Under the pieces are notes generated by a model. It worked only from the letters and a program-made list of their open reading frames with translations. It ran no database searches and was not told the DNA's origin. The translations under genes were made by a program, and so were the position numbers. From positions 1 to 7,643 of the forward strand of contig JASHVC010000667.1 in the NCBI GenBank assembly GCA_030039655.1: a stretch of 7,643 bases of DNA. The letters run 5' to 3'. Each line of letters opens with the position of its first letter. The stretch's first letter is position 1. This stretch comes from Xanthobacteraceae bacterium (GTDB taxonomy: Bacteria > Pseudomonadota > Alphaproteobacteria > Rhizobiales > Xanthobacteraceae). Positions 86-7,643 of this stretch are shown here, one piece after another.

Positions 86-372
86 TCTTCCAGGTCGTCG
101 TCCGCGGCCGCGTGCAGGGCGTCGGTTATCGCGCCTGGACCGAAGCGACTGCGGAGGAGCGCGGCGTCGAGGGCTGGGTGCGCAACTGCAGTGACGGCTC
201 GGTCGAGGCGCTGTTCGCGGGACCGGAAGAGCTCGTCCTCACCATGATCGAACTTTGCCGTGAAGGACCGCCCGGCGCGCGCGTGGACACGATCGATCAG
301 CGCGAGGCCAATACCGAAGATTTGGCGCTCCGGCGCCGCGGCGAGTTGTTCTCGGTGCTGGGAAGCGTCTGA
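76..372 (+). CDS. acyP: acylphosphatase
   Basis: This 98-residue protein has the usual length and layout of a small cytosolic acylphosphatase, which hydrolyses the carboxyl-phosphate bond of acylphosphates such as acetyl phosphate or 1,3-bisphosphoglycerate. The family signature GRVQGVGYR is at residues 11-19, with the phosphate-binding arginine at R19. The second signature, [17 protein letters not shown], begins at residue 33 and carries the catalytic asparagine N37. The ATG at 76 is preceded by a good ribosome binding site, GAAGGA at 64-69, 6 nt upstream. The start overlaps the end of the preceding gene, which suggests one operon. The last 76 nt overlap the 3' end of lipB on the other strand, so the two genes converge with no terminator between them. 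The physiological role of bacterial acylphosphatases is poorly defined. Confidence 0.92.
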
Positions 373-1076
373 GTATCGGCGCTTGCGCCGAACAGCGGTC
401 CGAACGCTGCTCGCAGCGCTACGTCGACCTCGGGCATCGTCACCGTCAGGCCGAGATCGCCGAGGGAAGTGACGCCGTAGCGCGGCTCGCTCACCCCGCA
501 CGGCACGATGCCGGCAAAGTGTGTGAGCTCCGGCTCGATATTGAGCGCGAAACCGTGCAGCGTGACCCATTGCCGTACGCGAATGCCGATCGCGGCGATC
601 TTGTCCTCGAATCCCTCACCCTTATCCGGCCGCCGTACCCACACGCCGATGCGGTCTTCGCGTCGTTCGCCACGCACATTGAATGAGGCAAGTGTCTGGA
701 TGAGCCATTCTTCGATGGTAGCGACGAAGCGGCGCACATCGGGCGCGCGGCGTCTGAGATCGAGCATCATGTAGCCGACCCGCTGGCCGGGCCCGTGATA
801 AGTGAACTGGCCGCCGCGGCCGGACGGGTGGACTGGAAAGCGCGCCTCGATCAGCTCCTGTGGCCGTGCCGAAGTGCCGGCGGTGTAAAGAGCTGGGTGC
901 TCGAGCAGCCAGACCAATTCGGGCGCTTCGCCGCGGGCGATGGCCGTAGCGCGCTCGGTCATGGCGGTAAGCGCCTGGTCGTAGTCGACCAACGCGTCGC
1001 TCACCAGCCATTCGACCGGGGGCGAGTCGCGCCCCGGCAAAAGCCCAATCGTCAGATCGTCGCGCGTAGGACCCAT
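297..1076 (-). CDS. lipB: octanoyl-[acyl carrier protein]:protein N-octanoyltransferase LipB
   Basis: LipB moves the octanoyl group from acyl carrier protein to the lipoyl domains of 2-oxoacid dehydrogenases and the glycine cleavage H protein, the first step of endogenous lipoate synthesis in the cytoplasm. Counting from the ATG at 1076 (259 aa), the motif [12 protein letters not shown] is at residues 87-98, the catalytic lysine is K159 in [10 protein letters not shown], and the catalytic cysteine is C193 in GIVPCGV. A TTG at 1124 would add 16 residues, beginning MAGFAAGR. I prefer the ATG because a possible -10 box at 1131-1136 would place the transcript start close to that TTG. Neither start has a clear Shine-Dalgarno. 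The region after about residue 230 is poorly conserved, and its last 25 codons lie antisense to the acylphosphatase gene. Confidence 0.94.
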
Positions 1077-1130
1077 TTCGTCGGTCAACCAAGGCGAGAG
1101 CCTGCCCGCCGCAAATCCCGCCAAACATTA

Positions 1131-1259: not shown

Positions 1260-1343
1260 GCGGTCGTGGCGGAATGGCAGACGCACTAGCTTGAGGTGCT
1301 AGCGGGGCAACCCGTGGAGGTTCGAGTCCTCTCGACCGCACCA
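1260..1343 (+). tRNA. tRNA-Leu (anticodon GAG)
   Basis: A full cloverleaf can be drawn by eye. The acceptor stem pairs GCGGTCG (1260-1266) with CGACCGC (1333-1339), followed by discriminator A and an encoded CCA at 1341-1343. The anticodon stem is CTAGC/GCTAG with loop TTGAGGT, which gives anticodon GAG for CUC and CUU codons. A long variable arm (CGGGGCAACCCGT region) marks it as class II, as expected for leucine. The T arm is GGAGG-TTCGAGT-CCTCT. The gene is complete and followed by an integrase gene in the same direction, so its 3' half is the probable attachment site of the element to the right. Confidence 0.96.
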
Positions 1344-1350
1344 GTAACCC

Positions 1351-1368
1351 TTCCGATACCTTTCCGAT
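1351..1368. repeat. direct repeat TTCCGAT x2, 11-bp period, next to the attachment site
   Basis: TTCCGAT occurs at 1351-1357 and again at 1362-1368, one helical turn apart, directly downstream of the tRNA CCA. In tRNA-targeting integrative elements this stretch carries integrase or excisionase arm sites. That role is inferred from position only. Confidence 0.35.
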
Positions 1369-1396
1369 CAATAAGTTACCGGTTTCATTGGATTTC

Positions 1397-1441
1397 CTAC
1401 AGAGACTCTGCTACAGAAACGACTACAGAACATCTCTGTAG
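1397..1441. repeat. iterated heptamer CTACAGA (three direct copies, one inverted)
   Basis: CTACAGA is found at 1397-1403, 1411-1417 and 1423-1429, and its inverse TCTGTAG at 1435-1441, with periods of 14 and 12 bp. The cluster fills the gap between the tRNA and the int1 start. It fits arm-type integrase sites or an operator controlling int1. A weak promoter reading (TTGGAT 1388-1393, 17 bp, CTACAG 1411-1416) would put one copy on the -10 box, which would suit autoregulation. Confidence 0.5.
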
Positions 1442-1448
1442 TAGAGTC
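1404..1448. repeat. 13-bp inverted repeat upstream of int1
   Basis: GACTCTGCTACAG (1404-1416) and CTGTAGTAGAGTC (1436-1448) are inverted copies with one mismatch that would be a G-U pair in RNA. They are separated by 19 nt, and the repeat ends 4 nt before the int1 ATG. In RNA the hairpin would hold the weak ribosome binding site TAGAG (1442-1446) in its 3' arm. In DNA it overlaps the CTACAGA series. Confidence 0.45.
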
Positions 1449-1452
1449 CGTG

Positions 1453-3042
1453 ATGCCCAAGGTCGCCATTCAACTCAAGCCCGCGCCTCGCGGTGGTTTC
1501 GTTGCTCGCAAATCCATTCCGCGCGACGTAGCGGAAGAGTACGGCAAACTGTTCGGCAAGGGCGCGCCGCAATGGGAGGCTTGGTTCAATAGCGGCCCTG
1601 TAAACCTCCAGCAGGCGTCGGCGAAGCAGCGCGAATGGTTGACCGAGGTAGAGGCGCGCATCGCTAACATTCGAGCAGGGCGCAATGGCGAGGGCCGGAC
1701 GCTGACGCCGAAGGGCGCAAGGGCTTTGGCTGGCGAGTGGTACTCTTGGTTCGCGGCACGTATGGCGACCAATAAGTGGACGAAAGATCAGTGGCGTGCC
1801 TACCACGAAGCTGCCTGGGATGGCCTTTACAGCGTCATGGACGCTGGTCCGCCTCACGATGATCCATTTGAACACGTCGATATGAACTTCATCCGGCCGA
1901 TCGTCGCCGACGAAGCCAAGACCGCCCAGTTCCTTGCCGCCAAGCGGCTCCAACTCGACCTACCATCGCGTGACATGTTCCTTGATTACGTGACCCGCGA
2001 TTTCTTTGCCGCCCTGGATTTGTTGGTGCGCCGGGCCGACGGTGACTTTGGCGCGGACGACTACGCGAAGCGATTCCCGCGGCAAGGGGAGGGCGGCGGC
2101 GATCTCGATTTGACGGCATGGTCGCTGTTTGAACAGTGGATTGCGGAAGCCAAGCCAGCCGCAAGCACGGTCAATAGATGGCGTGCGGTGTTCCTAAAAC
2201 TGCAAAACGACTTTCCGAATACCGGCGCGGCTGCGTTGCTGCCTGAACAAATGCAGGATTGGGCCAAGGGGCTGATAACTGCCGAGCGTGCTGCCGTCAC
2301 TGTGCGCGATGTTTGGGTGATTGCCTGTCGCACGGTGTTCGCATGGGCCATCGGCCAAAACCTGATAACGCGCAACCCTTTCGCGGGCTTGCGGATCACT
2401 GTGCCGAAGAAAATCCGCACACGCGAAACCAAAGCGTTTACAGAGGACGAAGCCGGCACCATCCTAAGGGCCGCGATCAAGATTAAGGTTCGCACCAAGA
2501 GCGATGCCGCGAAACGATGGTGCCCGTGGCTCGCTGCTTATAACGGAGCACGCGCGGGTGAGTTAACGCAGTTGCGCGGGGCCGATGTATTCGAGCGGAA
2601 CGGAATTTGGGCCATCAAGATTTCGCCAGAGGCGGGCACAGTGAAAAACCGAACGCCGCGCACTGTGCCGCTGCATGAGCACCTTATAGAGCAAGGCTTT
2701 ATCGATTTCGTGAAGGCGAGCGGCAGACGACCGCTGTTCTATAATGAGGCCAAGAAAAAAACTGATGACGATCCAACGAATCCGAAGCGGCCCCGCGCCG
2801 TCAAAGCTCGCGAACGTCTGGCGGAATGGGTCCGTGAGATTGGTGTCACTGATCCGGAGCTGCAGCCGAATCACGCCTGGCGCCACACCTTCAAAAAGCT
2901 GGGCGACCGCGCCGGTATATCGGAGAAGATGCTCGACACGATCTGCGGTCACACGCAAGCGACCACCGGACGCAGCTACGGTGAGGCCGACCTTGCCGAC
3001 AAGGCGGAGGCGTTACGGCGATTTCCGCGGTTCAAGATTTGA
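1453..3042 (+). CDS. int: tyrosine recombinase, integrase 1 (tRNA-Leu-linked)
   Basis: This phage-type tyrosine integrase probably catalyses insertion at, and excision from, the adjacent tRNA-Leu. Counting from the ATG at 1453 (529 aa), the N-terminal 220 residues form an arm-binding and linker region without strong motifs. A helical core-binding domain follows at about 220-315, and the catalytic domain runs from about 325 to the end. Catalytic residues are R367 (ARAGEL), a likely hairpin lysine K398 (TVKNRTPRTVPLH), H474 and R477 (HAWRH), H500 (CGHTQ) and nucleophile Y509 (GRSYGE). All are present, so the enzyme looks intact. A GTG at 1450 lies just before the ATG, but the weak TAGAG binding site at 1442-1446 is better spaced for the ATG. 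Its 3' end overlaps the tail of int2 on the opposite strand by 67 nt. It is longer than Int2 and shares only the catalytic signature with it, so it is not a duplicate. Confidence 0.95.
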   Translation: MPKVAIQLKPAPRGGFVARKSIPRDVAEEYGKLFGKGAPQWEAWFNSGPVNLQQASAKQREWLTEVEARIANIRAGRNGEGRTLTPKGARALAGEWYSWFAARMATNKWTKDQWRAYHEAAWDGLYSVMDAGPPHDDPFEHVDMNFIRPIVADEAKTAQFLAAKRLQLDLPSRDMFLDYVTRDFFAALDLLVRRADGDFGADDYAKRFPRQGEGGGDLDLTAWSLFEQWIAEAKPAASTVNRWRAVFLKLQNDFPNTGAAALLPEQMQDWAKGLITAERAAVTVRDVWVIACRTVFAWAIGQNLITRNPFAGLRITVPKKIRTRETKAFTEDEAGTILRAAIKIKVRTKSDAAKRWCPWLAAYNGARAGELTQLRGADVFERNGIWAIKISPEAGTVKNRTPRTVPLHEHLIEQGFIDFVKASGRRPLFYNEAKKKTDDDPTNPKRPRAVKARERLAEWVREIGVTDPELQPNHAWRHTFKKLGDRAGISEKMLDTICGHTQATTGRSYGEADLADKAEALRRFPRFKI

Positions 3043-4277
3043 GTGGTCGTCCCTTGGCGCTTCGTGAGCACCAGACTACGAATCTGGGGGTCAGGAGTTC
3101 GAATCTCTTCGGGCGCGCCATCGTTGTTATTGATTTTCAAGGTCTTTTCTGTTCGCGTTTGTTCCGCAGCGTCGCTGGTTTGCAGTTGGTTTGCAAATTT
3201 TGTTCGCGGTGAGTTCTCGAAGTTAAAGATCGCCTCCTCGGCCAGACCGCGAGTTCGAGCGAGATAACGCTCCAAGATTTGGTGGACCGTTTTCAACGAG
3301 TGGCCAGTGATGGTCGCGATCTGCTGCGGGGTACTTCCTGCCTCCGAGAGCAAAGTGACCGTGGTTCCCCGAAGATCGTGGAAGTGTAACTTGGTCGTTT
3401 CCGCGAGGTCTGTATCGCCAATGTCCTCCAGTCCCGCCGCCTGCATCGCGGCATCCCACAGTTTCAAAAAATACCTCTTCTTGAATGAACGGCCGGTCTT
3501 GGTGCTGAGAATAAGTGTGGAGCGTCGATCCATGTTGTCCAGCATCTTGCGAAGAGCCTGGGTACAGGGAATCTCAATGACAGGACCGAGTTTCTTGCCC
3601 CTTCGCGATTTGCCCTGACGAAGCCGGATCAATTTGCCGTCATATGCTGACCAAGGCAGGCGAAGTAGATCGCCTTCGCGCTGACCCGTATGCAAGGCGA
3701 GAACTAAGGCGTAGCGTAGCTCAAGTGGCGCTACCTTCATAAAAGCTTCGATATGGTCCGGCAGCCAGATTATCTCGGATCGGTCGCTGTGGTAGAGCCG
3801 CTTGAACCCCTTCAGGTGATTGCCTGGCAGCTTCCCCCTTTCGACGGCCCAAGTGAGCATTGCCGAAACAATTGACAGGCGGTTGTCCGCCTCCCTGGCC
3901 CCGGAGCTTTTTACAACTTTGTCTCTCCACTCTAAGAAGTCAGTCCTTACACGCCAGTCATCAAGGGCAACGATCGGAAGGTCACCAAAAACCTTCTCAG
4001 CTTCGGTTATCATTCGACGATATTCTATCTGGGTGCTGCCGGCGAGGTTCTGAAACTCCGGGGAAAGAGTGTAATCTCTAACGAGGGAACCGAACGTCTC
4101 AACTCTATCAGGTCGTTTAAACTGTTCGGCAGCGGTGAAGTCTGCAAGGAATTCGGGAGAACCAGGCTCACCGCGCAGTCGATTCCCGCTGGCTCGGTGA
4201 TACCAATACTTTCTACGAGTTCCGTCCCTCAGTCTCTTGTAGGTGCAAAATACGCCCTTGAGATTAGTTCGTACCAC
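2976..4277 (-). CDS. int: tyrosine recombinase, integrase 2 (tRNA-Arg-type), frame running through its attachment core
   Basis: This is a second phage-type tyrosine integrase, 433 aa as read here. An N-terminal arm-binding segment (about 1-55, rich in YKRLRDGTRRKYWYH) is followed by a core-binding domain (about 60-160) and a catalytic domain (about 165-355). Catalytic residues are R200 (TGQREGDLL), K223 (QGKSRRGKK), H300 and R303 (HDLRGT), H326 (TGHS) and Y338 (ERYLAR). The GTG start at 4277 has GGAG 8 nt upstream and overlaps the end of the excisionase-like gene by 14 nt, so translation is probably coupled. Residues 387-404 (GAPEEIRTPDPQIRSLVL) are the antisense reading of the tRNA-Arg fragment. 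The remaining 29 residues come from sequence beyond the core, including the end of int1. Everything after about residue 385 is therefore set by what lies next to the attachment core, and the true functional C-terminus probably ends earlier. Confidence 0.92.
   Translation of the reverse strand: MVRTNLKGVFCTYKRLRDGTRRKYWYHRASGNRLRGEPGSPEFLADFTAAEQFKRPDRVETFGSLVRDYTLSPEFQNLAGSTQIEYRRMITEAEKVFGDLPIVALDDWRVRTDFLEWRDKVVKSSGAREADNRLSIVSAMLTWAVERGKLPGNHLKGFKRLYHSDRSEIIWLPDHIEAFMKVAPLELRYALVLALHTGQREGDLLRLPWSAYDGKLIRLRQGKSRRGKKLGPVIEIPCTQALRKMLDNMDRRSTLILSTKTGRSFKKRYFLKLWDAAMQAAGLEDIGDTDLAETTKLHFHDLRGTTVTLLSEAGSTPQQIATITGHSLKTVHQILERYLARTRGLAEEAIFNFENSPRTKFANQLQTSDAAEQTRTEKTLKINNNDGAPEEIRTPDPQIRSLVLTKRQGTTTQILNRGNRRNASALSARSASP
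3066..3120 (+). other. tRNA-Arg(ACG) 3' fragment, probable attachment core (attP-like) for Int2
   Basis: Bases 3066-3120 reproduce the 3' part of a tRNA-Arg. They hold the end of the D arm (GAGC), an anticodon stem CCAGA/TCTGG with loop CTACGAA (anticodon ACG), the T arm AGGAG-TTCGAAT-CTCTT, the 3' acceptor strand CGGGCGC, discriminator G and CCA. The matching 5' acceptor strand and D arm are absent; the bases to the left are intergenic sequence and the int1 end. It cannot fold into a working tRNA. A 3' tRNA piece directly beside an integrase gene is the classic form of an attachment core. It points to tRNA-Arg(ACG) as the Int2 target, different from the tRNA-Leu occupied here. Confidence 0.85.
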
Positions 4278-4554
4278 GATGTTTTCTCCACTCGTCGAGT
4301 GGATTCAATAGTTCTGTCGTGGCAATTCCACTCTGCTGGTCCATATTCATTTCAAGGAGGCGCCGATCATATCGTCGACCTGGAAGGGTCGGTCCAGGAA
4401 TTTTTCCCTCGCGTCTTGCCTTGTAAAATGTGCTCAAGGACAAGCCGTACAGCTTTGCGGCTTCCTTGCAAGTCATGCCGCGGCTACTGTGGGTAATCGT
4501 CTGCGAAATGGTTGGGTAATGACTGGGTGTGGAATTCAAAAGGTGTTCTATCAA
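4264..4554 (-). CDS. AlpA/excisionase-like helix-turn-helix protein
   Basis: This 96-residue DNA-binding protein lies directly upstream of int2 on the same strand. A helix-turn-helix spans about residues 27-53 (MTCKEAAKLYGLSLSTFYKA) and is followed by a basic wing, GPTLPGRRYDRR (54-65), as in AlpA/MerR-type excisionase folds. Its place and overlap with int2 suggest a recombination directionality factor or a regulator of int2. The start is taken as TTG at 4554 because AAGGAG lies 6 nt upstream on the minus strand. The first ATG (4476, residue 27) has no ribosome binding site and would start at the edge of the domain. The first 26 residues look unstructured. The non-ATG start may keep expression low. 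It could instead be an int2 activator without excision activity. Confidence 0.82.
   Translation of the reverse strand: MIEHLLNSTPSHYPTISQTITHSSRGMTCKEAAKLYGLSLSTFYKARREGKIPGPTLPGRRYDRRLLEMNMDQQSGIATTELLNPLDEWRKHRGTN
4288..4302. promoter_or_regulatory. 15-bp palindrome covering the int2 ribosome binding site
   Basis: CCACTCGTCGAGTGG is a perfect inverted repeat with 7-bp arms around one central base. Read on the minus strand, its last bases form part of GTGGAG, the Shine-Dalgarno for the int2 GTG at 4277. In mRNA a CCACT/AGTGG stem with a 5-nt loop could hide the site until ribosomes translating the upstream gene open it. As DNA it could be a dimer operator. It also encodes residues PLDEW of the excisionase-like protein, so coding constraint may explain some of it. 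Confidence 0.4.
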
Positions 4555-5301: not shown

Positions 5302-5571
5302 ATGGACGTTCTGGAACAAAAACTAAAGATTGATCAAGAGTTAGATAACTCCTTGCTTCGCCCGATCACCCGGGAACACCTCGATTGTGGTTGCGCAAAC
5401 TGCGGTGGACATACTCAAGAGATCTACTTGACCTCGAATTGCCACGACAGCGCTAGTTTCGAGGCGGTTTACGACAAGCGCGATGGAACCCTAACACTGA
5501 GCTGTGACGTCTGCGGAGAACCTGTGGCCATTCTGCAGATTGCCGACAGTAAGCCCGTCAAGTCTCACTGA
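5302..5571 (+). CDS. small cysteine-rich, probably zinc-binding protein of unknown function
   Basis: The ATG at 5302 has a strong ribosome binding site, AAGAGGAG (5288-5295), 6 nt upstream. The 89-residue product has a helical N-terminus (1-27), then a metal-ligand pattern: C29, C31 and C34 (CGCANCGG), C47-H48 (NCHD) and C68-xx-C71 (CDVCGE), with strand-like segments IYLTSN, FEAVYDK and LTLSC between them. This fits a small zinc ribbon; many uncharacterised small proteins in alphaproteobacterial genomes have a similar C-terminal CxxCG strand layout. There is no signal peptide or membrane segment. It is the first gene after the promoter at 5105-5133, and two more genes follow on the same strand. 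A regulatory or nucleic-acid-binding role is possible but not shown. Confidence 0.8.
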   Translation: MDVLEQKLKIDQELDNSLLRPITREHLDCGCANCGGHTQEIYLTSNCHDSASFEAVYDKRDGTLTLSCDVCGEPVAILQIADSKPVKSH

Positions 5572-5607: not shown

Positions 5608-5736
5608 ATGGGAGGCAGCCGAACAGCGCTTCCCGTGTTGGAGAGGGCCGCTCTCGATCAAAGCAACGACGTGAAGAAGAACAGGCAATTGTTTGACACC
5701 AATCTAACAAAGAGAAAGAAAGGACCAAGAATATGA
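5608..5736 (+). CDS. possible 42-aa basic small protein, ATGA overlap with the next gene
   Basis: An ATG at 5608 opens a 42-codon frame whose TGA (5734-5736) overlaps the ATG of the next gene in an ATGA arrangement, a common sign of translational coupling. The C-terminus is lysine- and arginine-rich (LTKRKKGPRI). There is no clear ribosome binding site. The frame is also in phase with the preceding gene across its TGA, so it might be an in-frame extension rather than a separate gene. The rest of the 5572-5732 gap holds short inverted repeats: CTCC/GGAG at 5602-5614 and GAGAG/CTCTC at 5641-5655. Confidence 0.25.
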   Translation: MGGSRTALPVLERAALDQSNDVKKNRQLFDTNLTKRKKGPRI

Positions 5737-6224
5737 GTGTTGGTTATGGCGCGATTTATGTAGGTGGAGATTACAAAGGCGACCTAGAAGCTATTGTAAG
5801 AGTAATGAACCAGTTGGATTGGGGTGATAGCTATGACACCAAATTTGAAGTGATTAATAGCTCAGTCGTTCCGAAGCTTGGGTGGGCAGAATATCCAACT
5901 GCTATGCCTCGTTGCTATGTTCGAGACGACGGAACTCCCATTCCCTACAACGAAATAGACGAGGACGTCGAATTTGAATGCGATCTGGAAGACGTCGAGT
6001 TGCCAATACTCAGCCGAGACATATCGCCGCTGCTCGAAAGCGGCACATTGCGAGTATGCGCAGAAAGTCATGAACGTGAAAATATGTATTTAACAACACT
6101 CAAGATTTCTTCCGACGGTAAAGTAGAGGAAACGGCTCAATTTATTTCATTTAGCGAAGCTGACGTCGAAGAAGCTCAAAAATGGGTCTTCGAACCGAGA
6201 TCAGACCTCAGTCAGTTCATGTAA
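5733..6224 (+). CDS. acidic 163-aa protein of unknown function
   Basis: The ATG at 5733 has AAAGGA (5719-5724) 8 nt upstream. The 163-residue product starts MSVGYGAIYVGGDYKGDLEAI. It is soluble-looking, with no signal peptide, membrane segment or catalytic motif that I recognise, and it has a strongly acidic stretch at about residues 74-89 (NEIDEDVEFECDLEDVE). Predicted strands alternate through the middle and a helical C-terminus follows. Codons are more AT-rich than in the chromosomal genes, consistent with acquired DNA. It lies 18 nt before the helicase gene and in the same frame, so the two are probably co-translated. Its acidity could suit a partner-binding or DNA-mimic role, but that is speculation. 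I do not recognise the family. Confidence 0.8.
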   Translation: MSVGYGAIYVGGDYKGDLEAIVRVMNQLDWGDSYDTKFEVINSSVVPKLGWAEYPTAMPRCYVRDDGTPIPYNEIDEDVEFECDLEDVELPILSRDISPLLESGTLRVCAESHERENMYLTTLKISSDGKVEETAQFISFSEADVEEAQKWVFEPRSDLSQFM

Positions 6225-6242: not shown

Positions 6243-7643
6243 TTGAGAATCAATTTTTGTTCGGCGCCCTGCGGTTCAGGAAAGACATATCAGATTATCG
6301 AAAGGGCCTCCCAGTTAGCAGCCAAGGGCGAAAACGTTCTCGTCCTTCAGCCGACGAAAGAGCTTATCGATAAGACTGTCGAGCAAGAGCTTCTGGCTCG
6401 ATCTAATCCTCCGAAATATGTGAAGTTCTACACGACCCCCGAAAACGCTAAGTCTGTCGGCGGTCAACTAGCCGAACACTTCAGGTATCCCCCCGATTGC
6501 GGGCACATAGTGTTGTCGACACACCAGGTTCTTCCCTTCATTCCATTCTGGACGAACAAAAACTCCTGGCATGTTCTCGTTGACGAAGAGCTGCAGGTCG
6601 TAAAGCACAACTCCCGTAATCTGCCTAAGACTCATGACCTGATTACTGACCACATTGACTTAGTGCCTCACGACAGCATCTACAGCCGGATAGTAGTCAC
6701 CGACCTTGACAGCATGTCGGCTATCGCTTGCAACAAGGAGAAGGATGAAATCTACGAGTGGTTCCGAGAAATCGCCCAACTGCTGACCAACGAGAATTGG
6801 AAGTCCTTCGTCAACACTGAGATGTACCACAAACTGAAGGAGGGCAAAGGCGAACGGCTTTCGATCCACTCGACCCTCTCACCCAAAGTTCTCTCAGGTT
6901 TCGGCTCAGCCACAATGTCCTCGGCGAACTTCCAAGACACGCTGATCTATAAGCTCTGGGGGAGGGAGGGCGTCGACTTCCATGAGGACGTCGAGCTGTC
7001 AAAGAGCCTTCGTTTCCAAGGGCACTCGAACGGGCACCTAATCACAATAAAATATGCAACCGAGCTTCCATGGTCGAAGTCCTTACAGGGTCGAAAGGCT
7101 CAACCCGACGATCAACAGGGGAGAACGGTCCTAATCGAGTATATCGAGGCAGCAAAGGCAGAGTTCCAGGACAAGCCCTTCCTCTGGCAGGCCAATAAGT
7201 CGCTGCAGGGCAATCCCTTCGGGTTCAACGGCCAGCAACTGCCTAATGTTCCCCACGGGCTCAATGACTATTCCCAATTCGATTGTTTGTGCTTCCTGTC
7301 AGCCTTGAATCCTTGGCCTGACCATTTTCATTTCCTGAAGTCTCGTGGTCTCAGCAACGAAGAAGTTCACACAGCCATTTACTGTTCGGCGGTGTACCAG
7401 TCAGTTATGCGAACTTCGATCCGCGACCCTGAGAACTTGAATCCAAAGACAATCATAGTCCCTGACCGAACAGCCGCTGAATATCTCAAAAAGCTCTTCC
7501 CTGGTTCCCAAATCGAAAAATTGAACACCGCTATTTCAGAGACCAATAACAAGCTCGGAGGTCGTCCCAGGAAGCACAAGTCCACCTCAGATCGAGTCAA
7601 GTCTCACCGAACAACTAAGAAACTCAAAAAGCTCCAAAACCTG
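6243..7643 (+). CDS. helicase superfamily 2-like ATPase of a mobile element (3' end outside window)
   Basis: An open frame runs from 6225 to the window end, at least 467 codons from the TTG at 6243. In order it shows a Walker A loop APCGSGKT (8-15), the Q/T-rich segment LVLQPTKEL, a Walker B box VDEEL (D114-E116), GSATMSS with SAT at 222-224 (motif III), and QSVMRTSIR (Q386, R390, R394) as motif VI with arginine fingers. A basic tail has GRPRK at 440-444 followed by lysine- and arginine-rich residues. This is the pattern of a superfamily 2 nucleic-acid-dependent ATPase; the start on a short strand just before Walker A means there is no N-terminal extra domain. No ATG or GTG lies in frame before Walker A, so the start must be TTG 6243 or CTG 6240. 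A poor TAGAG site lies 12 nt upstream, and coupling to the preceding gene (stop at 6224) is likely. Replication of a satellite or integrative element is the likeliest role; a defence or accessory ATPase is the alternative. Confidence 0.85.
   Translation, partial: MRINFCSAPCGSGKTYQIIERASQLAAKGENVLVLQPTKELIDKTVEQELLARSNPPKYVKFYTTPENAKSVGGQLAEHFRYPPDCGHIVLSTHQVLPFIPFWTNKNSWHVLVDEELQVVKHNSRNLPKTHDLITDHIDLVPHDSIYSRIVVTDLDSMSAIACNKEKDEIYEWFREIAQLLTNENWKSFVNTEMYHKLKEGKGERLSIHSTLSPKVLSGFGSATMSSANFQDTLIYKLWGREGVDFHEDVELSKSLRFQGHSNGHLITIKYATELPWSKSLQGRKAQPDDQQGRTVLIEYIEAAKAEFQDKPFLWQANKSLQGNPFGFNGQQLPNVPHGLNDYSQFDCLCFLSALNPWPDHFHFLKSRGLSNEEVHTAIYCSAVYQSVMRTSIRDPENLNPKTIIVPDRTAAEYLKKLFPGSQIEKLNTAISETNNKLGGRPRKHKSTSDRVKSHRTTKKLKKLQNL

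Follow-up and report, generated by a model that had tools for sequence, protein, structure and literature searches.

Two unrelated integrases around a partial tRNA-Arg behind tRNA-Leu: a probable composite of two integrative elements in a Xanthobacteraceae contig

The stretch of DNA analysed here (hereafter the window) is one entire metagenome contig of 7,643 nt from a Xanthobacteraceae bacterium, whose end at 7643 falls within a helicase-like open reading frame. An earlier note on this DNA had proposed that the two integrases belong to a single circular element, which entered the chromosome through the first integrase (Int1) at tRNA-Leu and kept a tRNA-Arg fragment as an unused attachment site of the second (Int2), with a nested or tandem insertion among its own alternatives. 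The left side of the window is chromosomal in character. It carries a lipB-like gene with a lipoyl ligase domain (297..1124, minus strand; Pfam LplA-B_cat, 6e-34), and positions 1-1450 share 72-79% DNA identity with the 30 best-placed loci from genomes of the family (L160-L189); for the lipB flank the best Xanthobacteraceae genome match is 79% identical over 1,045 bases. The G+C content changes from 0.60 in int1 to 0.47-0.53 on the int2 side.

ARAGORN calls a single tRNA in the window, an intact tRNA-Leu(GAG) at 1260..1343 on the plus strand, which the alignment with five relatives also points to as the Int1 attachment site. Behind it lies int1 (1450..3042, plus strand), encoding a tyrosine integrase of 530 aa from a tRNA-targeting alphaproteobacterial family (Pfam Phage_integrase, 4e-07; PHROG integrase, 5.7e-31). 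Residues R368, H475, R478, H501 and Y510, which we take to be catalytic, are among the invariant columns of the family alignment. A word search found three CTACAGA words and one TCTGTAG between the two genes (1397..1441, plus strand); they have no other exact copies in the window and are presumed to be Int1 arm sites. Int1 used alone as query retrieved no relative from IMG/VR or GTDB contigs, the relatives being recovered with an alignment query. A complete tRNA lies at most 400 bp upstream in 44 of the 59 locus rows of the Int1 family, a count in which, as in the 12 Int2 rows discussed below, some places were fetched and hence counted twice. Most Int1 relatives sit 78-95 bp behind tRNA genes, tRNA-Leu being the commonest and tRNA-His and tRNA-Pro also occurring, and more distant relatives are found behind tRNA-Ser and tRNA-Thr. 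When the window is aligned with L161-L164 and L170, the common sequence stops at the CCA end of tRNA-Leu (L162 shares 7 further bases; the L161 contig stops at the tRNA), and there is no int1 match behind tRNA-Leu in the roughly 0.9-1 kb visible in L162-L164 and L170. Because its relatives lie mostly behind tRNA genes and related chromosomes show the site without int1, entry through Int1 at tRNA-Leu, as the earlier note had it, appears well supported by sequence comparison. Within the window, queries made of the final 18-25 nt of tRNA-Leu, with at most 4 mismatches allowed, find no second copy of its 3' end, and a 15-nt query gives only matches with 4 mismatches; in one Int1 relative (G016) the far repeat measures 22 nt and lies about 18 kb off on the same contig.

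The second tRNA sequence lies between the integrase genes. Positions 3066..3120 (plus strand) form a 55-nt 3' piece of tRNA-Arg(ACG), the putative Int2 core, and several relatives have complete tRNA-Arg(ACG) genes whose 3' portion matches it at all 55 bases. The 23-bp spacer that separates it from int1 (3043..3065) contains neither a recognisable tRNA-Arg 5' half nor an Int2 left arm. Resemblance to a tRNA 5' half left of the core is at the random level (P about 0.63 for 23 bases and 0.83 for 35 bases). Infernal aligned 3057-3117 end to end to its tRNA model with the D arm missing, at 28.2 bits against a cut-off of 29; we count the pairing of the bases from 3057 onward as chance, and, given the chance-level similarity, we rejected a decayed 5' half despite these few paired bases. 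A complete tRNA-Arg beside int2, which would be expected of an ordinary attL, was not found in the window by ARAGORN or by the similarity test. The layout described in the earlier note, an intact tRNA-Leu, Int1, a 55-nt ACG piece without its 5' half, and Int2, is thereby confirmed. We also considered that tRNA-Arg might simply be a chromosomal neighbour of tRNA-Leu and rejected this, as 9 of 14 close genomes place a complete tRNA-Arg(ACG), its core identical, off the lipB contig (fragmented assemblies weaken the comparison). A search of IMG/VR with the exact 17-base junction word gave three matches, none adjoining a tRNA core, which were taken as chance.

The int2 reading frame as called (2976..4277, minus strand; 433 aa) has no stop ahead of the core; it continues through the tRNA-Arg piece and terminates in int1 antisense. 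Our analyses used its integrase part, about 3121-4277 (Pfam, 2.1e-14), and not the whole called frame. The int2 frames of L220-L224, five related elements, terminate 0-19 bp from the tRNA. Both integrases match Phage_integrase, and BLASTP between them yields no real alignment (best E 4.9). Overlapping int2 is an excisionase-like helix-turn-helix gene (4264..4554, minus strand) that matches HTH_17 at 4.2e-07 and the NCBIfam excise family at 2.5e-06, the latter at 27.7 bits, below the cut-off of 28.8. It has tblastn matches in 37 locus rows, mostly directly upstream of int2, and none in the closest Int2 loci, L041 and L154. The Int2 relatives compared are at most 68% identical to Int2, and the closer ones converge on complete tRNA-Arg(ACG) genes: of the 12 rows that are at least 45% identical and offer 200 bp of room or more, 10 show a complete tRNA-Arg no further than 350 bp away (nine ACG, one CCT), the remaining two being L108 and L227, whose int2 carries an internal stop. 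Below 45% identity a tRNA is present in 11 of 33 rows, and is of several kinds. Close Int2 relatives come from seven genomes. In five of these, the same contig carries another, shorter tRNA-Arg piece at a distance of 9-19 kb; in G380 about 97 kb separate the short piece from the complete gene, and in G125 the assembly is broken at the tRNA-Arg core. Virus records supplied further sites of the Int2 type. The int2 gene of the window likewise converges on a tRNA-Arg core followed by a two-word right arm, as in elements of its family.

Further to the right follow two open reading frames without a family match, of 89 aa (5302..5571) and 163 aa (5733..6224), and the helicase-like gene truncated by the contig end (6243..7643; PHROG_2467, 4.7e-51; ResIII, 9.4e-06), all on the plus strand. 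None of the three had a tblastn match at 1e-3 among the loci compared with them. A separate search (E up to 1e-10) found relatives of the helicase-like protein in 5 of 391 genomes of the family (L234-L238), with open frames of 801-898 aa in four and a disrupted one in G089. Three of the five have a tRNA and a weakly integrase-like gene no more than about 9 kb away, so the helicase-like gene may serve small integrative elements in their replication. With no matches for the cargo, and with the helicase relatives near weakly integrase-like genes at other tRNAs, we dropped the cargo as an arbiter between readings.

What the tRNA-Arg piece represents can be read from its flanks. An attP unites both ends of an element, and its left side should therefore equal the left side of the attR. 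In all 13 distinct Int2-type attR sites, motifs stand left of the core near -85 (motif A, close to GGTTTGC...CTAAxCCxTTGA) and near -33 (motif B, a word of the TTTTGC/GTTTGC type). These motifs were first described from seven sites (L199-L202 and L205-L207), from which we also selected the seed words of the arm model. Six attR added later (L248, L252, L254, L255, L257 and L258) have motif A at -84/-85 in every case with at most 3 substitutions. At -33, four of them fit a loose version of motif B that allows up to 4 substitutions, and L255 and L257 show a weaker, related word there. The 120 bases left of the core in the window contain neither pattern. The left-arm score of the window is -6.4 and those of the 13 attR are 28.5-46.3 (leave-one-out); 20,000 random stretches drawn from the fetched loci, the attR sites themselves included, score -7.0 on average (sd 6.3, maximum 42.3). 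The far-end set retained L202, whose contig carries no int2 (it belongs to G125, where the contig breaks at the core), and L207, from G380, where int2 has an internal stop and the distant complete tRNA-Arg is that described above. Excluded from it were L197 and L208 (piece at a contig edge, no left flank), L256 (left flank the same as that of L206), and sites with no adjoining Int2-family gene, namely L194, L203, L209, L210, L213 and L214 and, from close genomes, L269, L279, L280 and L286.

The edge of the core gives a second criterion. Over core bases 1-8, the window has 0 mismatches to the tRNA gene, 14 attL sites have 0-1 and the 13 attR have 2-7; the attL sites were selected for a complete tRNA-Arg(ACG), whose presence there is thus uninformative, and two of them (L051 and L157) share the same flank. 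To the right of the core, inside the int2 frame, the two GGTTTGCA words of the Int2 right arm (3177..3197, plus strand) occur with at most 3 substitutions in 14/14 attL of relatives; in the window this arm is intact and identical to that of L041. Since the left arm is missing, the core edge is of the tRNA-gene type and the right arm is intact, the junction at 3066-3120 looks like the attL of an inserted Int2 element and not like an unused attP, an assignment drawn from comparison with 13 far and 14 near ends. This comparison does not support the proposal of an unused attachment site, and the nested or tandem insertion offered alongside it fits the junction. The attL-like junction is nevertheless atypical, for its target would lack tRNA bases 1-22.

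We consider it somewhat probable that the window holds two separate integrative elements, each of a known kind, that became joined into a composite. The drop in G+C content from int1 to the int2 side speaks for this reading. One element would have inserted through Int1 at tRNA-Leu(GAG), in keeping with the habit of its family and with the relatives that lack int1 at this site. A second, comprising int2, the excisionase-like gene and probably the helicase-like gene, would then have inserted directly behind int1. The left part of the tRNA-Arg piece would be derived from the target, and its right part, together with the right arm, from the element. The target would have been a tRNA-Arg(ACG) remnant without its first 22 bases, 23 bp behind int1, either an orphan piece on the element of Int1 or a copy shortened later. 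That such a remnant was carried on the element of Int1 is plausible, because related genomes contain orphan tRNA-Arg 3' pieces that have no Int2-family gene in the surrounding 1.5 kb or so; two of these genomes (G001 and G011) have no Int2 relative at E up to 1e-30. No tRNA-Arg piece was found behind int1 in the Int1-family loci compared, many of which have a short downstream reach (less than 5 kb in 11 of the 39 loci L002-L040, plus other short loci). A target without its 5' half is unusual for the Int2 family, as 10 of the 12 close rows adjoin a complete tRNA-Arg, and no other Int2 relative is known in such a piece. It also counts against two joined elements that the Int2 relatives compared reach no more than 68% identity and that the far ends of both elements lie beyond the contig, where another tRNA-Arg piece, preceded by the -85/-33 left arm, is predicted. 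As the piece exceeds the matching stretches of 45-53 nt that relatives have at their far ends, Int2 with its excisionase might still excise its element, and Int1 could mobilise both elements provided that its far end is intact. An extension that we regard as doubtful is that the orphan tRNA piece behind the integrase of some Int1-type elements serves as a landing pad for docking elements.

A different origin of the junction would be an integrase switch or another illegitimate event, in which a module of int1 and tRNA-Leu replaced the left half of the Int2 site and left it one-armed and probably dead. Both the absence of the left arm beside an intact right arm and the position of the int1 end 23 bp from the core agree with this; the tRNA-type core edge would be unaccounted for unless the Int2 element was cut while integrated, and we hold such an event to be rather unlikely.

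Somewhat lower we place an artificial junction, in which metagenome assembly joined two places that share the tRNA-Arg core. The layout is known from a single 7,643-nt contig, and the core is a repeat that troubles assembly, as three contigs of G125 end within 2 bases of it. On the other hand, the assembler of G125 broke at the core instead of joining, the left half of a chimera would still require a tRNA-Arg piece behind int1, and the 55-nt core is shorter than a typical short read. Of the G125 contigs concerned (C53, C65, C119 and C85), three stop at the tRNA-Arg core, and the one with int2 breaks off 17 bases past the int2 match. This suggests several copies of the tRNA-Arg attachment site in one genome.

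Arrangements nearer to the one-element idea exist elsewhere in the Int1 family. In Bradyrhizobium uaiense (L005:8459-11578; genome G004) and in a second genome (L241:9929-13059; G392), an Int1-family integrase and a P4-type integrase, placed back to back, flank an orphan 3' piece of tRNA-His (48-49 nt), and in both genomes the complete tRNA-His is on another contig. The P4-type integrase of L005 has Arm-DNA-bind_3 and Phage_integrase domains and is 75% identical to that of L241. The left edge of the two pieces resembles that of a presumed tRNA-His attR (L302, 47 nt, on G007:C100), as expected of an attP; their left flank is unlike that of L302, so that any left arm is putative, and no useful bounding repeats were found for the two-integrase elements of L005 and L241. 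To the right of L302 stand TAGCTACCAC-like words, which recur next to the P4-type integrases of L005 and L241. In G392, a partial Int1-family match adjoins another tRNA-His 3' piece (L308, contig C68), possibly a decayed remnant. We regard L005 and L241 as candidate two-target elements, nearer to the single-element idea of the earlier note than the window is, and they may represent one stage of a polypartite element; for Bradyrhizobium, bipartite ICEs that use tRNA sites have been described (PMC9174649). For the window itself, one circular element with a working, unused Int2 attP ranks last in probability: the piece without a 5' half, the intact right arm, the usual position of int2, the seemingly comparable tRNA-His states and the several attP sites of polypartite ICEs, as far as the accounts consulted describe them (PMC5882170, PMC9174649), speak for it, and the missing left arm and the tRNA-type core edge speak against it.

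Composites and multi-integrase elements are already known (PMC8978831, PMC5704250, PMC5882170). In the part of the report consulted, Shewanella putrefaciens CN-32 carries a composite genomic island, CGI48 with GI21, which resembles the window in that an island at a tRNA gene (tRNA-Trp) contains a second island with its own integrase and excisionase (PMC8978831). GI21 uses a shortened attachment site there, of 9 bp instead of 21 bp, and the integrase gene of the outer island lies about 0.6 kb away (PMC8978831). The GI21 site is on the 5' side of that gene, whereas the site in the window lies 23 bp behind the int1 3' end; relatives of GI21 use yicC and, as far as that account goes, no tRNA, unlike Int2; and excision of both islands was demonstrated, whereas the window is known from its sequence (PMC8978831). 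Tandem accretion of ICEs, IMEs and CIMEs, as outlined in the source consulted in part, similarly brings two unrelated integrases side by side through entry into the attachment site of a resident element; the classical form involves elements of similar target specificity, whereas the window combines tRNA-Leu and tRNA-Arg as targets (PMC5704250). Tripartite and bipartite symbiosis ICEs share with the window several integrases and attachment sites, and the sites of the symbiosis ICE in one Bradyrhizobium strain pair tRNA-Arg with ybgC; in these ICEs every attP has a chromosomal site of its own with which it recombines, whereas the piece in the window is without the left arm expected of an attP (PMC5882170, PMC9174649). 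The exact layout of the window was not found in the literature searched, an observation of little weight given its limited coverage.

The comparison indicates that, on a short contig, arm sites and core edges together can tell apart an attL and an unused attP, and the attL assignment corrects a tempting two-target reading of the window. The genomes with an orphan tRNA-His piece (L005 and L241) offer a cleaner place to test the existence of two-target elements. If the landing-pad reading were true, docked elements would travel to tRNA-Leu, a second target, without an integrase of their own for it. Through composites of this kind, mobile DNA gains access to new sites in the chromosome.
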